Translations under genes and position numbers: made by a program
The notes under the pieces: generated by a model
Seen by the model: only the letters and a program-made list of their open reading frames with translations
What the model was told of the DNA's origin: nothing
Databases searched by the model: none
Assembly: GCF_001956985.1 (NCBI RefSeq)
Contig: NZ_CP019082.1
Location: 1,054,001-1,118,000, forward strand
DNA length: 64,000 nt
Direction: 5' to 3'
From: Paludisphaera borealis
GTDB lineage: Bacteria > Planctomycetota > Planctomycetia > Isosphaerales > Isosphaeraceae
Shown: positions 23,428-30,561 of the stretch, piece after piece
How the letters are laid out: each line of letters starts with the position of its first letter
How positions within the stretch are numbered: the stretch's first letter is position 1

Positions 23428-24303
23428 ATGACGACGATCGACCGCAGAACGTTCCTCGCGGCAGCCGCCGGCGTCGCGGCGGGCGCGGCACTGGGCAAAG
23501 GCGCTGTTGCGGCCGAGGCCGGCAAGCCGCGGTGGAAGCGGGCGTTCATGCTCGGCGGCCTGACCAAGGGGCCCGCGCTGCCGACGTTCCAGCTTCTCAA
23601 AGAGGCCGGTTTCGAGGGCGTCGAACTCATAAGCCCCAACGAGTTCGACCTCGACGAGCTCCTGGCCGCGCGCGACAAGACGGGCCTGTTGATCCACGGC
23701 GTCAGCGGCGGACTGCACTGGCAAAAGCCGCTCTCCGACCCCGATCCCCAGGTGGTCGAGGCCGGGATGGCCGCCATCCGGCAGGAATTCCTCGACTGCA
23801 AGGCTTACGGCGGCACGACCGTCCTGGTCGTCCCGGCCGTGGTCAACAAGAAGGTCTCCTACCGCCAGGCCTACGAGCGATCGCAGGCGAACATCCGCAA
23901 GCTGATCCCGCTGGCCGAGCAAAGCGGCGTCAAGATCGCGGTTGAGGAGGTCTGGAACAAGTTTCTGCTCAGCCCCGTCGAGTTCGCTCGCTACATCGAC
24001 GAATTCCAGAGCCCGACCGTCGGCGCCTATTTCGACGTCGGCAACGTGGTCGAGTTCGGCTACCCCGAGGAGTGGATCCACGAGTTGGGGCACCGTATCC
24101 TCAAGATCCACATCAAGGAATACGCCAAGCCCAAGCGGTTCGACTACCCCCTGGGCGAAGGCGAGATCGACTGGTCCGCCGTTCGCCAGGCGCTGATCGA
24201 TGTCGGATACGAAGGCTGGATCACGGCCGAGGTCGGCCTGGGCGATCTCGAAGCCATGAAGGACGTCGTCAAGCGGATGAGCCGCCTGCTCCAGATCGGC
24301 TGA
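23428..24303 (+). CDS. Tat-exported sugar phosphate isomerase/epimerase-like TIM barrel
   Basis: A 291-residue protein. Residues 4-31 form a Tat signal with the twin arginine in DRRTFLAAAAGVAAG. The mature part is a xylose-isomerase-like TIM barrel: FQLLKEAGFEGVELISP, a conserved Glu in VAVEEVWNK-like context (KIAVEEVWNKF), the GAYFDVGNVVEFGYP strand with an Asp ligand, and ILKIHIKEYAK containing His and Lys. These residues usually bind a divalent metal. Planctomycetes carry many exported members thought to act on sugars outside the cytoplasm; the substrate is not known. The ATG is chosen because GAGG lies nine bases upstream; a TTG 15 bases before it overlaps that site. Confidence 0.85.
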   Translation: MTTIDRRTFLAAAAGVAAGAALGKGAVAAEAGKPRWKRAFMLGGLTKGPALPTFQLLKEAGFEGVELISPNEFDLDELLAARDKTGLLIHGVSGGLHWQKPLSDPDPQVVEAGMAAIRQEFLDCKAYGGTTVLVVPAVVNKKVSYRQAYERSQANIRKLIPLAEQSGVKIAVEEVWNKFLLSPVEFARYIDEFQSPTVGAYFDVGNVVEFGYPEEWIHELGHRILKIHIKEYAKPKRFDYPLGEGEIDWSAVRQALIDVGYEGWITAEVGLGDLEAMKDVVKRMSRLLQIG

Positions 24304-24416
24304 TCCCGAGATCGCCCTCGGCTCGCGAATTCGCCGTCTTGCCCGCCTTGTCCGGACGAACTCATTCGGGGCGTTGGAGGTCGATTGCCGAGAAATCGCC
24401 GACTTCGCCCAGAAAT

Positions 24417-24447
24417 TTGCATTCGTCGGACGCTGAATCGACATAAT
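24417..24447 (+). promoter_or_regulatory. possible promoter of the sigma-cytochrome gene
   Basis: TTGCAT at 24417-24422 and CATAAT at 24442-24447 resemble a housekeeping -35/-10 pair, but the 19-base spacer is long. They lie in the A/T-richest part of the space before the sigma gene. No repeat suggesting autoregulation was seen. Tentative. Confidence 0.25.
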
Positions 24448-24489
24448 ACAGAAGTAAGGCGGACATGAGCGGCCAGGACGAACCGACCG

Positions 24490-25473
24490 ATGATCGATCA
24501 CGCTAGTGACGCGACACTCCTGAAGCGGTTCGCGGAGAGGCGGGAAGAGACCGCCTTCGCGGAGTTGGTCGAGCGCCATGGCCCGGTCGTGCAGCGTGTT
24601 TGTCGACGTTTTCTTCGCAGCGAGCACGACGTCGAGGAAGTCTTTCAGGCGACGTTTTTGATCCTGGCCCTTCGCGCATCGGAAGTCTCATGGAAGCCTT
24701 CCGTGGGAGGCTGGGTGCAAAACGTGGCGCGGCGGCTGGCTCTCCACGCCCGTGGCGAGATCGCCCGGCGGGGGCGCCGCGAGGTCCAGGCGTCGAGCCT
24801 CTACGGCGGGATGCACTCGCCGGAATGCCCGGTTTCGGCCTTCGGCGACGAGGTCGAACGCCAGGACGTTCGGCGGATGATCGATACGGCCGTCGAAGGG
24901 CTCCCCGAGAAGTATCGCGCTCCGCTGGTCCTCTGCTACCTCGAAGGGCTGACCAACCACGAGGCCGCGCAACAGCTCGGGTATCCGGTCGGGTCGATTT
25001 CGAGGCGGCTGGAACGCGCCCGGGGGCTGCTCAAGAAGCAACTGATTGGCTATGGCGTCACGCTGAGCCTGCTGGTCGGCCTCGTCGCCCTGGGCTCCCT
25101 GGCCGCGAATCGGAACGCTCGCAAGCTCGAACCGATCCGTGGCGCGATGGCCCTTGTGGGTTCCGAAACGGCGCATCGGTCCGATCTGAGAGAACTTATC
25201 CAGCCTCTGGAACGTATTGACTGTGGTAGCCTGAGTTTCCCGGATCGCGATCGGATCGGGCGATTGGCGGAACAGTCCGCCTGGGCGGCCGATGCGGTCG
25301 CGCCGTTCGATCCGGGCGTCCGCCGCGACGTGTGGCGAGCTTACGCCGGCGAGATGAAGCTGGCGGCGCTTGAGCTTTCTCGGGTTTACGAGGACGGCCG
25401 CGAGCCCGAGCTGCTCGCGAGCGTCCGCCGTCTGAACGCAACCTGCGTTCAGTGTCATTCGGCGTTCCACTGA
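24490..25473 (+). CDS. ECF sigma factor fused to a membrane anchor and a cytochrome c'-like heme c domain
   Basis: A 327-residue protein built from parts not normally joined. Residues 5-95 are sigma region 2 (DATLLKRFAERREETAF, DVEEVFQATFLILAL, then WVQNVARRLAL). Residues 120-186 are region 4 (GLPEKYRAPLVLCYLEGLTNHEAAQQLG, SISRRLERARGLLKKQL). Residues 188-206 are one membrane segment (GVTLSLLVGLVALGSLA). The rest should be extracytoplasmic and helical, and ends in CVQCHSAFH with Cys319, Cys322 and His323, the C-terminal placement used by cytochrome c'/c556 four-helix bundles. It precedes ResB- and CcsA-like heme attachment genes on the same strand by 187 bases. Known: planctomycete ECF factors often have C-terminal extensions. 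Inferred: heme or its ligand controls release or conformation of the sigma domain. No separate anti-sigma gene is adjacent. Confidence 0.9.
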   Translation: MIDHASDATLLKRFAERREETAFAELVERHGPVVQRVCRRFLRSEHDVEEVFQATFLILALRASEVSWKPSVGGWVQNVARRLALHARGEIARRGRREVQASSLYGGMHSPECPVSAFGDEVERQDVRRMIDTAVEGLPEKYRAPLVLCYLEGLTNHEAAQQLGYPVGSISRRLERARGLLKKQLIGYGVTLSLLVGLVALGSLAANRNARKLEPIRGAMALVGSETAHRSDLRELIQPLERIDCGSLSFPDRDRIGRLAEQSAWAADAVAPFDPGVRRDVWRAYAGEMKLAALELSRVYEDGREPELLASVRRLNATCVQCHSAFH

Positions 25474-25659
25474 TCGAATCAACGCCTTTTACAGTCGTTG
25501 GGCGCGTCGGCCGGGGCTGGCGCGCCGTCACGAGACTGGTCCCCGGCGCAAGCCGCGGATAGAATCTACTGGTACTCGGGGCGACTTCGGAACAGCCGGC
25601 GCCCCGCCCGCCCGATCTCTCCGCGTTCTTGTTCCTCCCTCCTCGGCAGGTGCGATATC

Positions 25660-27864
25660 ATGGCGATGGCCAGCAAGCAGGCTCCAGGTTCCTCATCGTC
25701 TCCTGGCGGTCCTGCCAACGCGAATTCGAGTGCGCGTTCGACGTCCCGGTCGTCGCCCGGCGGCCTGTTCGTCAACGGGATCACCGCCGTCTACCGATTC
25801 CTCGCCTCGCTCAAGCTGGCCGTCCTCAGCTTGACGAGCCTGGCGGCGGCCTTGGCCTTCGCGACCTGGTTCGAGTCGAACTACGGAACCAAGGCCGTCC
25901 AGGACTACCTCTACAAGAGCGCGGCGTTCGCCATCCTGCTCGCGTTTCTGGCGACCAACATCCTCTGCGCCGCCCTCATTCGATACCCATGGAAGAAGCG
26001 GCAGACGGGGTTCGTGATCACGCACATCGGGCTCCTGGTCCTGATCGCCGGCTCGTACGTCCACTTCAAATCGGGCGACGAGGGCATGGTCGGGATGCTC
26101 GAAGGGGAGAAGCGGAGCGAGATGCTCCGGACCGACGCTCCGGTCTTCCGGGTCCGCGAAGTCGATCCCCATGGTCAAGAGTCTTCGCGGTCGTACGAGA
26201 TGCCGTTCGACGCCGGCGGACCGTTCGCGTGGGGCGCGGGACAGTCGCGCATCAACAATATCTTCGATCTGGGGCTTAACTGGCTGAGCGGCGGCCGGCT
26301 CCCCTCGGCGGGCCCCGCCGAGGACGTCCTGAGCAAGTCGGGCGACCCGTTTCGGTTCGCCGTCAAGCAATACCTGCCGTCGTCGGCCCCCGCGATGTTG
26401 CGCGTCGCCGACCCCGCCGGTCAGCCGATGGCCCGGGTCCAGCTTCAGTTCAAGGCGCCGGGAATGCCCGAGCCTCGGCTGGCCACTCCCATCGAAGACG
26501 AGCAGTGGTTCAAGCTCGACCGCCGCTTCTACCGCGCCGCCAAGAGCGACGGCATGCCCGCGCTGTTGACGTTCGCCTACGTGGACAAGCCGGGCCTGCT
26601 CGAAGACTTCCTCAAGCCGCCCCTGGAGAAGAGCGCCGCCGGCGTGGCCCGGTTCCGCTATGCGGACAAGAACGGCAAGGAAAAGGTTTACGACTTCGCG
26701 GTCGACCAGCCGGTGGGCACGGCCCTCACGCTGCCTGACAGCGATCTGAACGTGAAGCTGGAAAAGTTGGCGCACTTCCCGACCGCCGAGGGGGGATTGT
26801 CGCGGGTCGTCGGCGAAGATTCGATTCCGATCGCCATGTTCCAGGTTCGCAAGGGGGAAGGCGCCGAGGTCGAGCACATCGCGATGGGCTCGATGCCGAT
26901 GTTCCCCAACGTGATCCCGCGCCCCAGCGCCGACGGCGGCAAGCCGGCCGAGGCTCTGGTGTCGATTCATCTGATGGTCCCACCCGACCTTGATCCCAAG
27001 ACCAACGGCCGCTTCGGCCAGATCGACGTCCTGGCCGGCCCCGATCACGCGCTCTACTACCGGGTCTTCGGCCGGGGCAAGGAGGGCAAGGTCGAGCTGC
27101 GGTCGTCGGGGCCGCTCGCCCAGCACAAGTGGATCGACGCCTTCGGCGCCGCCGCCGGCGCGGTCATGACGATCGGCTTTCAGGTCGAGGACTACCTGCC
27201 TGCCGGCGTCGAAAAGCAGATCTTCGAGCCGCTGTTCCTGCCCAAGGGCCAGATGGAACAGGCGATGCCCGCCTGCCTCGTCGAACTGACGGTCGGCGAT
27301 CAGTCGAAGGAAATTTGGATCCAGCGCAGCGAGTCGCTCGAATCGCCCTCGTTCCGCCCGGTTCCGTTCGGTGATCGCCTGTACGAAGTCGCCTACGACG
27401 TCGACCGCCGCCCCCTGGGCTTCGAGCTGAAGCTCGACGACTTCGAGGTCGGCTTCGAGCCCGGCACCGAGCAAGCCACGAAGTTCGTCAGCAAGGTGCG
27501 GCTCGACGACCCGTCGACGGGCGTCCGCGACAAGCCATACACGATCTCGATGAACGAGCCCCTGACGCATCGCGGCTACTCGTTCTACCAGATGCGGTAC
27601 TCGCCGATCGTCGATCCTCGCACCAACCAGCGCACCGGTCAGTTCCAGTCGGTCTTCCAGGTGGGGAGCAATCCCGGCCGGCCGATCATCTACGCCGGCT
27701 GTCTGCTGGTGGTGATGGGGGCGTTCGTGCAGTTTTACATGCGGGCCGGCCTCTTCACCGACGGCGGCAAGCGCGAACGCGAGCAAGCGGCTCGCAAAGC
27801 CGGGCTGCCGATCCCCGAGCCGGTCGTGGCGCCGAAGCCTCAGCCCCAGGACGAGATCCTCTAA
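25660..27864 (+). CDS. resB: ResB-like cytochrome c biogenesis protein
   Basis: A 734-residue membrane protein of System II (Ccs) heme attachment. After a Ser/Gly/Ala-rich cytoplasmic tail (1-36), the first helix reads FLASLKLAVLSLTSLAAALAFATWFESNYG, typical of ResB/Ccs1. A second (FAILLAFLATNILCAALI) and third (FVITHIGLLVLIAGSYVHF) segment follow. A long extracytoplasmic domain (about 140-700) ends with YSPIVDPRTNQRTGQFQSV and a last membrane segment GCLLVVMGAFVQFYM. ResB works with CcsA to deliver reduced apocytochrome and heme on the outer side of the membrane. The ATG follows GGCAGG. It is longer than B. subtilis ResB (about 540), mainly in the outer domain. The CcsA-like gene starts 84 bases later. 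Confidence 0.87.
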   Translation: MAMASKQAPGSSSSPGGPANANSSARSTSRSSPGGLFVNGITAVYRFLASLKLAVLSLTSLAAALAFATWFESNYGTKAVQDYLYKSAAFAILLAFLATNILCAALIRYPWKKRQTGFVITHIGLLVLIAGSYVHFKSGDEGMVGMLEGEKRSEMLRTDAPVFRVREVDPHGQESSRSYEMPFDAGGPFAWGAGQSRINNIFDLGLNWLSGGRLPSAGPAEDVLSKSGDPFRFAVKQYLPSSAPAMLRVADPAGQPMARVQLQFKAPGMPEPRLATPIEDEQWFKLDRRFYRAAKSDGMPALLTFAYVDKPGLLEDFLKPPLEKSAAGVARFRYADKNGKEKVYDFAVDQPVGTALTLPDSDLNVKLEKLAHFPTAEGGLSRVVGEDSIPIAMFQVRKGEGAEVEHIAMGSMPMFPNVIPRPSADGGKPAEALVSIHLMVPPDLDPKTNGRFGQIDVLAGPDHALYYRVFGRGKEGKVELRSSGPLAQHKWIDAFGAAAGAVMTIGFQVEDYLPAGVEKQIFEPLFLPKGQMEQAMPACLVELTVGDQSKEIWIQRSESLESPSFRPVPFGDRLYEVAYDVDRRPLGFELKLDDFEVGFEPGTEQATKFVSKVRLDDPSTGVRDKPYTISMNEPLTHRGYSFYQMRYSPIVDPRTNQRTGQFQSVFQVGSNPGRPIIYAGCLLVVMGAFVQFYMRAGLFTDGGKREREQAARKAGLPIPEPVVAPKPQPQDEIL

Positions 27865-27948
27865 CTCAGCTCAAGCGTCGCGCGTGTCAGGAATGGGAAC
27901 CGGTCGTTCGATCCGAATCCGTACACCGCCAGCCACGGGAGAAATGTG

Positions 27949-30561
27949 ATGAGACGATACGGCCGACTTCTCTTTGGACTTGGCCTGTGCGCGCTGCTGA
28001 TCACCACGGTTGCGGCGGTTTCGCCCGGGCAACGCGACGATCAGGGCGTGCGCAAGCTGGGCGTCGGGCCGGCCTACGAGCAGCTCGGCAAGGTCGCTGT
28101 CATGCACCAGGGGCGCGTCAAGCCGCTGGACACGGTCGCCCGCGAGGAGGTCAAGCACGTCTTCAGCCGCGAGACCATCAAGCTGCTCGACGACGAGAAC
28201 CGGGTCGTCGAGACCTGGGGGCCGGTGGCGGCGTTCGTCGACTGGATCGTCCGGCCCGAGTTTTGGGATTCTCAGCCGTTCATCCTGGTCGACTACCTTC
28301 CACTGAAGCGGCAGATCCTCCTGAGTTCGATCCGCGAGCAGCTCGGCGTTGTCGCCGCGAAGTCGACGACCTCGGCCGACGACAAAGGGCGGCTGACCAG
28401 GCTGATCGAGGATTCCGAGATCACCACCGGGATGCTGGCCGAGCTCTTGAAGTCGTCCAAGCTCGCCGCCGACGACCAGAAGACCCTGACCGTACTGGCC
28501 GACAAGCTCCACGAGGAACACAAGTGGCTGACCCCCGACGAACTCGAGAACGCCAAGATCAAGCACGGCGATCATGACGAACCGTTCATGGAGTGGGTCT
28601 CGCAGCTCGACGCGCAGAAGCGGAAATTCGACGCCGATCCGAAGTCGGCCCAGCGGCTCACGGAAATCGAGAAGCGGGCGATCGACGTCGGCCAGCGGCT
28701 GGTGACCTACAAATCGTACAGCGGCGACGAGATGCGGTCCGCCGGCCTGATCCGGATCATGCCCCGGCCGTCGAGCCGGGCGGCCCTCGACTATTATAAA
28801 GAGGTCATCCCCAAGGCACGCTCGGTGCAGGACCCGCGCGAGCTTTCGCGCGTCCTCACCCCGATCGAGTTCGACGCGCTCAAGGCTTTGGATACGTACT
28901 GGAACGACACCCCGCTCGACGATCGCCACACTCCCGGCGAAGACGCCAAGTTCGATGAGAAGTTCAGCGTCTGGCTGAGCGAAAGTTCGGTCTGGGTTCC
29001 CCTGAAGGTCTTGCTCAAGGCGGAACCCGAAGGACTTGTCAAGGCCGGATATCCCGACGCCGACGTCCGCGCGTTCCTGACGGCCTACCGCCAGCTCGAG
29101 AACGCCGAGACGAGCGCTCCGGGACAGGTCGCCGCGGACGCCGCCGCGAACCTCTTGAAGACGTCGAGGGCGCTGGGCGAGGCGGTCAACCCGGGCAAGT
29201 ATCCGACCCTGGCCTCGATGGATCGCGAGTCGCACTTCAACGCGGTTAACCCGTTCTGGCAGGCGCCCTTCGCTTACGGGGCGGCCCTCGCCCTGCTGGC
29301 CGTGAGCCTCGGCTTCGCCGGCGGCCGGCGGTCGGAGATGGGGATCGCCGGCAAGAGCTTCTACACGCTGGGCATGCTCGGCCTGGCGGCCGGAATCGGG
29401 CTGGAAGTCTACGGCTTCTACCTGCGGATCGCCATCTCGGGCTGGGCGCCGGTGACCAACATGTACGAGACGGTCATCTGGGTGGCCCTGGTCACGGCGG
29501 TCCTGTCGTTCACCTTCGAACTGGTCTACCGCCGCACCTTCACGGCCCTGGCCGGAGCGGGCGTGGCCCTGCTGGGAACGATCACCGCGGCCAACGTTCC
29601 GCTGCTCGACCCCAGCATCAAGAGCCTTCAGCCGGTCTTACGGAGCAACCTCTGGCTGACGATCCACGTCTTGACCGAGGTGTCGAGCTACGCCGCGTTC
29701 GGCCTGGCCTGGGGGCTCGGCCTGATCGCGACGTTCTATTACCTGACCGCCACATACCGCCGCACGCCGACGTTCAAGGAGCTGGCGGCGCCGTTGCTCC
29801 CCGGCTTGCCGCTGCTGGCGACGGGCGGGGCCGGCGTGGCGGCGTCTTACGGGTTGTTCGGCGAGTCGTGGACGACCGGCGACCCCCTGTTCTACGTCTT
29901 TGCGATCATGGGCGGAATCGGCTGGATGGTCTCGCTGGGGACGGTCCTGGCCTGCGCCGGCGAGGTCGTCAACCGGCTCACGACGCGCGGTCTGGACGAT
30001 CAGCCGGCCGTCGAGGTCGAGCGGCACGCGGCGGCTGGAAGCCGTCCTCGGCCGTCGGTCGAAGAGATCAAGGCTATGGCCGAGGCCGCTCCGCCGCTCC
30101 AGCTCGACGCCCGAAGCCGGTCCATGCAGCAGACCGCGGCCATGATCAAGCCGCTGTCGAACTTCATCTACCGGGCGATGCAGGTGGGCGTTCTGCTGAT
30201 CGCCGCCGGCACGATCCTCGGAGGCGTCTGGGCCGACTATTCGTGGGGACGCTTCTGGGGATGGGACCCCAAGGAAGTCTGGGCGCTGATCACGCTGCTC
30301 GTCTACCTGGTGCCGCTGCACGGCCGGTTCGCCGGCTGGGTCAATACTTTCGGCCTGGTCTTCGCCTCGGTCGCCTGCTTCCTCTCCGTCGTGATGGCCT
30401 GGTACGGGGTCAACTTCATCCTCGGCGTGGGCCTGCACAGCTACGGGTTCGTCGAGGGAGGCTCGCAGGGCTTCATGAGCTTGATCATCGCCAGCATGAT
30501 GTCGCTGCCGCTGGCCGCCTACTGGCGGCGTTGGCTGGGCTACAACAGCCTCGCCGCCTGA
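27949..30561 (+). CDS. ccsA: CcsA/ResC-like cytochrome c heme lyase component with large N-terminal domain
   Basis: An 870-residue protein. The C-terminal half (from about 440) is the CcsA/ResC/HemX-type multi-helix heme handling domain: IHVLTEVSSYAAFGLAWG contains one conserved His, and the tryptophan-rich WWD-type motif reads SWGRFWGWDPKEVWAL at residues 765-780, followed by LVPLHGRF with a further His. The N-terminal part is a signal-like helix (10-25) and a roughly 400-residue outer domain beginning VAVMHQGRVKPLDTVAREEV, a pattern I recall from fused CcsBA proteins of Bacteroidetes. B. subtilis ResC is under 400 residues, so this is about twice as long. The ATG has GGGAG seven bases upstream; a GTG one codon earlier is possible. 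Confidence 0.9.
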   Translation: MRRYGRLLFGLGLCALLITTVAAVSPGQRDDQGVRKLGVGPAYEQLGKVAVMHQGRVKPLDTVAREEVKHVFSRETIKLLDDENRVVETWGPVAAFVDWIVRPEFWDSQPFILVDYLPLKRQILLSSIREQLGVVAAKSTTSADDKGRLTRLIEDSEITTGMLAELLKSSKLAADDQKTLTVLADKLHEEHKWLTPDELENAKIKHGDHDEPFMEWVSQLDAQKRKFDADPKSAQRLTEIEKRAIDVGQRLVTYKSYSGDEMRSAGLIRIMPRPSSRAALDYYKEVIPKARSVQDPRELSRVLTPIEFDALKALDTYWNDTPLDDRHTPGEDAKFDEKFSVWLSESSVWVPLKVLLKAEPEGLVKAGYPDADVRAFLTAYRQLENAETSAPGQVAADAAANLLKTSRALGEAVNPGKYPTLASMDRESHFNAVNPFWQAPFAYGAALALLAVSLGFAGGRRSEMGIAGKSFYTLGMLGLAAGIGLEVYGFYLRIAISGWAPVTNMYETVIWVALVTAVLSFTFELVYRRTFTALAGAGVALLGTITAANVPLLDPSIKSLQPVLRSNLWLTIHVLTEVSSYAAFGLAWGLGLIATFYYLTATYRRTPTFKELAAPLLPGLPLLATGGAGVAASYGLFGESWTTGDPLFYVFAIMGGIGWMVSLGTVLACAGEVVNRLTTRGLDDQPAVEVERHAAAGSRPRPSVEEIKAMAEAAPPLQLDARSRSMQQTAAMIKPLSNFIYRAMQVGVLLIAAGTILGGVWADYSWGRFWGWDPKEVWALITLLVYLVPLHGRFAGWVNTFGLVFASVACFLSVVMAWYGVNFILGVGLHSYGFVEGGSQGFMSLIIASMMSLPLAAYWRRWLGYNSLAA

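Follow-up and report, generated by a model that had tools for sequence, protein, structure and literature searches.

A membrane-anchored ECF sigma factor with a predicted cytochrome c'-like outer domain, encoded beside cytochrome c synthetase genes in Paludisphaera borealis

Planctomycete ECF sigma factors with C-terminal extensions, WD40 types included, are known from the literature, including the consulted parts of PMC8999054, PMC8103513 and PMC8567305, and a preliminary description of the present locus had noted them. According to the accessible part of a 2022 review (PMC8999054), 15 of 26 ECF groups with regulatory extensions were then unstudied. ECF57 and its relatives join ECF regions 2 and 4 to a C-terminal extension, which is a WD40 domain in some of them. 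Two conserved cysteines of ECF57 are thought to link sigma2 and sigma4 (PMC8999054, accessible part). In IutY and in ECF52-type factors, sigma, membrane helix and outer regulatory part lie in a single chain, the extensions being of anti-sigma or zinc-finger/carbohydrate-binding type, and IutY is freed by proteolysis, as given in the same portion of that review. Sensors of the sCache_heme type, such as GSU0582, GSU0935 and Tll0287, have a strictly conserved CXXCH and carry covalent heme c in an outer sensory domain (PMC12889525, in the portion consulted).

The locus described here lies in a 64,000-nucleotide stretch of the P. borealis genome (RefSeq assembly GCF_001956985.1, contig NZ_CP019082.1, positions 1,054,001 to 1,118,000; hereafter the window). 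Like ECF57, its product has regions 2 and 4 and a C-terminal extension, but that extension is a short helical domain with a CXXCH motif. Its C38 and C149, invariant in 15 of 15 rows, are likened to the ECF57 cysteines by their description in the consulted text of the review, not by position. The protein resembles IutY and the ECF52 type (PMC8999054, accessible part) in its one-chain layout, and differs in having the CXXCH domain where those factors have the extensions named above. With the sCache_heme sensors it shares a strictly conserved CXXCH in an outer, putatively sensory domain, whereas those sensors, as far as the consulted portion of PMC12889525 describes them, have a Cache fold and other signalling outputs. 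In cytochromes c' (PF01322) and their small exported relatives from the same genomes, CXXCH likewise sits close to where the last helix ends, and the profiles are similar; those are free proteins, whereas the present domain is the outer part of a sigma fusion.

The words heme and cytochrome are absent from the consulted part of PMC8999054, as are the terms sigma factor and ECF from that of PMC12889525. Our literature search found no sigma factor with a cytochrome domain, and unseen papers or supplements may mention one. Membrane-fused ECF factors and covalent-heme sensors are each known; we found no printed account that unites the two or ties such a protein to cytochrome c synthesis. To our knowledge, no protein has been described that directly senses heme ligation during the making of cytochrome c. 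A sigma factor with a heme-attachment site, encoded beside the synthetase genes, would make sensing of heme ligation testable in one protein.

The protein matched the NCBIfam sigma70-ECF profile (TIGR02937) at 83 bits, against a cut-off of 42.9, and belongs to that family. The reading frame had been described as containing complete sigma regions 2 and 4, and both Pfam domains indeed scored above their cut-offs (Table 1). A single membrane segment had been placed at residues 188-206; one segment was seen, but slightly earlier, the best 19-residue hydrophobic window being 185-203 (mean Kyte-Doolittle 1.92). Five Lys/Arg residues lie in the 12 positions before this segment and three in the 12 after it. 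CVQCH occupies residues 319-323 and the C-terminus follows four residues later, so that the chain ends in CVQCHSAFH, with the two cysteines and the histidine numbered as first reported. Across 18 aligned homologues, the hydropathy maximum ranged from 1.48 to 2.29, falling below 1.6 in two (L062 and L067). In all 18 rows the Lys/Arg count was higher in the 12 residues before the membrane segment than in the 12 after it, which places the C-terminus outside. The charge pattern thus favours, in 18 of 18 homologues, the original view that the motif lies outside and not in the cytoplasm. At the level of sequence, the architecture, the topology and the cytochrome c' kinship of the window protein are all supported.

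Table 1. Positions in the window of the sigma fusion gene, its predicted parts and adjoining features.
Feature	Position	Strand	Evidence or remark
Promoter-like motif GCATTCG-N16-CATAAT	24419..24447	+	42 bases before sigma start
ECF sigma–membrane segment–outer cytochrome c'-like domain protein	24490..25473	+	327 aa, ATG start
Sigma-70 region 2, residues 26-87	24565..24750	+	Pfam PF04542, 37.5 bits (cut-off 24)
Sigma-70 region 4 (Sigma70_r4_2), residues 129-178	24874..25023	+	Pfam PF08281, 49.9 bits (cut-off 25.7)
Membrane segment, residues 185-203	25042..25098	+	Hydropathy and charge counts; positive side faces sigma part
Outer helical domain, residues 208-327	25111..25470	+	PF01322 below cut-off; model helices
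CXXCH heme-attachment motif (putative), Cys319/Cys322/His323	25444..25458	+	Invariant in 18/18 outer domains
TAGAAT, candidate -10 of separate resB promoter	25560..25565	+	In 10/16 sigma-resB gaps
ResB (System II cytochrome c synthesis)	25660..27864	+	PF05140, 63.9 bits (cut-off 24.6)
CcsA/CcsB-type cytochrome c assembly protein, System II	27946..30561	+	PF01578, 97.6 bits (cut-off 29.9)

The strongest context for the sigma fusion, absent from the preliminary description, is the presence of resB and ccsA directly downstream. The products of these System II synthetase genes both scored above their Pfam cut-offs (Table 1), and the CcsA/CcsB-type protein matched TIGR03144 at 147.7 bits, below the cut-off of 187.6. 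The listed ResB frame opens at a TTG (25498), but tblastn starts of most homologues agree better with an in-frame ATG at 25660. Upstream, on the same strand, lie genes for GatA and GatB (named from sequence) and for a TIM-barrel isomerase-like protein (PF01261, 141.7 bits), the latter with a Tat-like start that scored 19.6 bits with PF10518, below the cut-off of 22.7.

This arrangement recurred in related genomes. Of 18 genomes of the order with the sigma gene, 16 have resB as the next gene on the same strand. Fifteen of the 16 then have ccsA, and in the sixteenth the contig ends at resB. In G290, a genome of another family, resB lies one gene further downstream of the sigma fusion. The intervening gene (L112:2156-3280, minus strand) is lipoprotein-like, and its product gave no Pfam match at E 0.001. 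The sigma gene stands apart from resB in the remaining two genomes of the order, G014 and G031, whose stretches are 82.5-88.3% identical. In G014 it sits among GFO/IDH oxidoreductase and glycosidase genes, and a protein with a cytochrome c domain (PF00034, 31.7 bits) is encoded about 2 kb away. We also took 15 ResB loci from genomes, or parts of genomes, in which no fusion was known; one of them, in G018, has a sigma fusion gene. Upstream of resB in G048, which belongs to another family, we found a distant ECF gene without CXXCH (L083:11023-11739, minus strand); it scored 18.7 bits with the sigma profile, lies outside the fusion group and looks ordinary, which shows that ECF genes without CXXCH can also occur near resB. 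Linkage between the sigma gene and resB is strong, yet neither universal nor required for resB.

We searched for homologues with the outer domain and with the sigma part separately. With the outer domain as the sole query and a limit of E 0.01, 14 rows were obtained from 13 of 59 genomes. Ten of the 14, the window included, were sigma fusions, all with a membrane segment and CXXCH, and the other four (L019-L022) were not sigma fusions. The outer-domain fusion profile (A2) matched in 32 of the 45 genomes of the order, and among the matches listed (30 loci) 17 were sigma fusions, every one with CXXCH. The copy in G004 is broken by a run of N. An eighteenth fusion, in G018, first drew attention because a sigma gene precedes resB there; its product ends in CLRCHLAARD. 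To remove bias towards CXXCH, the same 45 genomes were searched with the sigma part only (A5). This gave 17 hits in 17 genomes at 295-326 bits, the next best scoring 194.6. All 17 are fusions already identified by the other routes, and all have a membrane segment and a C-terminal CXXCH. Since the sigma-only query still returned CXXCH in 17 of 17 cases, the uninterrupted members of this sigma group all carry the motif. Search bias as the source of the CXXCH enrichment was countered by this query and by the discovery of the G018 fusion through gene order. The proposed search for further proteins with sigma regions, a membrane helix and a C-terminal CXXCH was thus productive, with 17 of 17 uninterrupted homologues in the order having this layout; homologues without CXXCH, which had been held to speak against a heme domain, were not encountered in the sigma group of the 45 genomes.

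The fusion gene was not found in 27 of the 45 genomes of the order. ResB was still present in 11 of the 14 fusion-free genomes of the order searched for it, suggesting that the sigma fusion is dispensable. In the class and phylum searches, at most 11 initial candidates per genome were scored, so that their fusion counts are minimum values. In the class-wide search, 134 of 397 genomes had a match at 1e-5; L100, one of the 12 new loci examined (L100-L111), is a sigma fusion, and the other 11 have no sigma part. L100 is the fusion of G290, giving at least one further fusion in the 397 class genomes. A draw of 392 genomes from the phylum gave at least two with a match at 1e-8, both known members of the order. 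A contig scan returned a single locus, L023, whose match was confined to the sigma region.

In a tree of 53 sigma parts, the fusions grouped on one branch with a support of 87/99, present in 89% of bootstrap trees, where the bootstrap was not quite settled and the G290 row fills only 46% of columns. The 18 fusions in the tree were 17 from the order, without the interrupted copy, and that of G290; 34 paralogues from the window's own genome fell separately. This genome contains dozens of ECF paralogues. Among the 34 examined, two of them cut by the end of the stretch, CXXCH was found in the extension of one. The idea that CXXCH is a common trait of the long ECF factors of this genome was rejected on this count, the single case being of a different, di-heme type.

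Conservation within the outer domain was assessed in an 18-row alignment, over 109 well-filled columns with at most five gaps each. The only invariant columns were the C, C and H of CXXCH. The homologous domains are 18-38% identical to that of the window protein, and the distance from the membrane segment to the His is 88-122 residues. A Met in helix 1, which we take to be a candidate sixth heme ligand, is present in 10 of the 18 domains and absent in 8, and the +4 position after the CXXCH His is Arg in 12 and His in 4. As CXXCH is invariant and the Met and Arg occur in 10 and 12 of 18, respectively, conservation seems to act on attachment itself and not on a particular ligand pocket. In all 18 domains the motif lies near the C-terminus, a cytochrome c' trait. 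A chance occurrence of CXXCH was considered and rejected, as its three residues form the sole invariant columns and 17 of 17 uninterrupted members of the sigma group carry it. We regard covalent heme on the outer domain as very probable. Five of the sigma fusions (L056, L057, L058, L059 and L065) have 98-109 extra residues after CXXCH, in which no conserved feature was seen.

The suggested kinship to cytochrome c' was examined by profile comparison. PF01322 (Cytochrom_C_2) matched residues 207-327 of the window protein with E=0.0038 and 18.6 bits, below the cut-off of 26.5, and the whole protein with E 0.02. At E up to 1, this profile matched 11 of the 18 outer domains, the best at 9.6e-07. 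The homologue in G290 exceeds the curated cut-off (27.5 vs 26.5 bits), and the G018 fusion protein gave no PF01322 match at E 0.01. A relationship was therefore borne out, with 11 of 18 homologues matching, but the score of the window's own domain stayed below the cut-off. On these profile matches we class the outer domain as a divergent cytochrome c' relative, outside PF01322 membership. Small exported cytochrome c'-like proteins with a C-terminal CXXCH were also observed (L041-L043, L045-L050 and L052), many of which begin like IKxIMxKLxKGPxSLT. PF01322 at E up to 1 matched 10 of 10 aligned stand-alone proteins of this kind from the same genomes. Comparison of the outer domains with the exported proteins by hhalign gave 97% and 1e-10, a match that is partly circular because it was the outer-domain profile that had retrieved the exported proteins. 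This circularity does not affect the Pfam matches.

The preliminary description had expected a helical domain around CXXCH. A single-sequence AlphaFold2 model of the outer domain, made with no alignment (mean pLDDT 63.5, pTM 0.58), has five helices, at domain residues 7-16, 23-34, 46-63, 72-94 and 98-119. The last two were modelled most surely, and CXXCH lies near the end of the final one. Weak as this model is, it agrees with that expectation. The single-sequence model of the full-length protein had a mean pLDDT of 38.7, too low for use. No Foldseek match to the outer-domain model reached E 0.001; cytochromes c' and cb562 appeared within the top 50 rows at E 0.15-0.70, beside other bundles. 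With VIA-align, the cytochrome c' structure 3vrc scored Z 9.8 (rmsd 2.6 over 99) in rows spanning 9.3-11.5. Neither program singled out cytochrome c' above unrelated helical bundles. A phmmer search against the PDB gave one weak, irrelevant match, and a profile search of the PDB matched an engineered cytochrome b562 (E 0.008); cytochromes c' came only at E values of at least 0.33, ranked below designed bundles and a chemoreceptor. The model work supports a helical bundle and nothing narrower.

We then considered how the fusion gene might be transcribed. The promoter-like motif upstream of it (Table 1) forms an aligned conserved block, GCATTCG-N-CATAAT, in the otherwise divergent upstream DNA of five genus members. 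The pattern GCATYYR-N15/16-RCATNA, which was written after seeing the sites, occurs within 150 bases upstream of 17 of 19 sigma fusion genes. A matrix made from five rows and compared with shuffles gave P <=0.05 in 12 of the 14 rows not used for the matrix, these 14 rows being mutually related, with G004 in the same genus and the start of L064 uncertain. The two failures, G014 and G031, have the variant GCATTT-N-GGCAATA, found at three sites in these two genomes, two of them at the sigma gene, against one site for the reversed control. In G290 the site reads TTGCATTCG-N16-GCATAATAC and lies 38 bases before the start.

Narrow forms of the motif came close to one site per genome. GCATTYGN{14,18}CATAAT had seven sites in six genus genomes, six of them at the sigma gene, and its reversed-pattern control had none. 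When one mismatch was allowed at fixed spacing, seven sites were found in three genomes (three at the sigma gene; control, two), and TGCATTYGN{15,16}RCATNA had 11 sites in 13 genomes (five at the sigma gene; control, two). One extra site, in the window's genome (G000), falls within a gene-like frame on the minus strand and is probably due to chance. A wider regulon was set aside, as few sites lie beyond the sigma gene, though further targets may exist. The presence of the motif before 17 of 19 sigma genes, together with the rarity of its narrow forms elsewhere, suggests autoregulation. We infer that it acts as the promoter of its own sigma factor, likely an autoregulatory ECF promoter with few other targets.

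The motif was absent from all 16 gaps between sigma gene and resB, that of the window included. TAGAAT-like elements precede resB in G011 and G014 also, where no sigma gene adjoins, and TAGAAT is a candidate housekeeping promoter element of resB-ccsA. A simple sigma-70 scan of positions 24250-25750 found no consensus site and did not list TAGAAT; no terminator-like site was found in the same interval. As the gaps lack the motif and 10 of 16 contain TAGAAT, control of resB by the sigma factor would occur by read-through at best.

Sequence shows how the protein is built, that its CXXCH is strictly kept, that its gene is linked to resB-ccsA and that a motif lies upstream. These findings can be combined in a scheme in which a one-protein, membrane-anchored, self-regulating sigma factor senses heme attachment through its outer domain and so acts as a homeostat of cytochrome c maturation. 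This is the reading we favour, although we judge it slightly less likely than not. The outer domain would be a small c'-like helical bundle with one covalent heme, attached at CXXCH by the ResB-CcsA synthetase (System II) whose genes come next. The sigma part would recognise GCATYYR-N15/16-RCATNA as its own promoter and thereby drive its own transcription, which may read through into resB-ccsA. As for the signal and its sign, we infer that when heme attachment lags, the unfolded apo-domain would leave the sigma part active, most simply because proteolysis would cut it loose from the membrane, for which IutY is a precedent. Once heme is attached, the outer domain would fold and the sigma part would be held inactive. 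More guardedly still, we propose that the cytochrome c synthetase takes the sigma factor itself as a substrate, which would make it a feedback sensor of heme attachment with transcription control, membrane anchor and heme acceptor in a single chain, and that this belongs to a wider use of c-type cytochrome domains as outer parts of sigma factors in the lineage. If true, covalent heme would join the inputs of ECF sigma factors and offer a compact heme- or redox-controlled switch for engineering.

Alternatively, the outer domain might always be loaded with heme, the sigma factor being switched by binding of NO, CO or O2 or by a redox change, and resB-ccsA might answer to the state of respiration. 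The domain is related, if distantly, to cytochrome c', and cytochrome c' proteins bind NO and CO. The helix-1 Met, the candidate sixth ligand, is retained in 10 of 18 domains but missing from 8, and besides C, C and H nothing is invariant. Covalent-heme outer sensors do exist, the sCache_heme type having NO-sensor properties (PMC12889525, consulted portion). This explanation, unlikely in our view yet worth serious consideration, does not by itself account for linkage of the sigma gene to a synthetase; an oxidase or NO reductase would be the expected neighbour. Because CXXCH is kept while other residues vary, sensing of attachment, and hence of maturation capacity or heme supply, is preferred over sensing of a bound gas.

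It is very improbable that the protein is a heme-free thiol or metal switch, in which CXXCH would form a disulfide or bind zinc and so register the thiol balance outside, on which System II also depends. Zinc-finger and metal-binding Cys-rich ECF extensions are known (PMC8999054, accessible part), but an exact CXXCH placed towards the end of a helix like that of cytochrome c', followed by Arg at +4 in 12 of 18 domains, tells against such a site here, as do the Pfam kinship to cytochrome c' and the linkage to heme ligation genes. The heme domain could also be electron-transfer or decorative cargo with no control over sigma, and the linkage to resB a frozen gene order. The order GatA-GatB-isomerase-sigma-resB-ccsA is kept in several genomes, so the linkage partly reflects common ancestry, and it is absent in G014 and G031. 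In G021, however, the genes are linked without the isomerase or GatA/GatB in an 18-kb stretch, and in G290 both the linkage, with one gene between, and the motif are kept in another family; we consider the cargo explanation improbable.

A second sigma–cytochrome fusion is encoded in the same genome (L142:1373-3784, minus strand, within G000:C1:2898700-2902700). It has ECF regions 2 and 4, a hydrophobic segment and an outer di-heme DHOR domain (PF06537, 97.4 bits) with two CXXCH. In L198 (G028:C1 near 8043649-8045599), the sigma and DHOR parts lie in separate, overlapping frames, which may represent either a split form or a frameshift of a relative of the di-heme fusion. Frames with the sigma profile and two CXXCH were also found in G001, G005 and G018, and frames of 910-944 aa matching both the sigma and the DHOR parts occurred in six more genomes.
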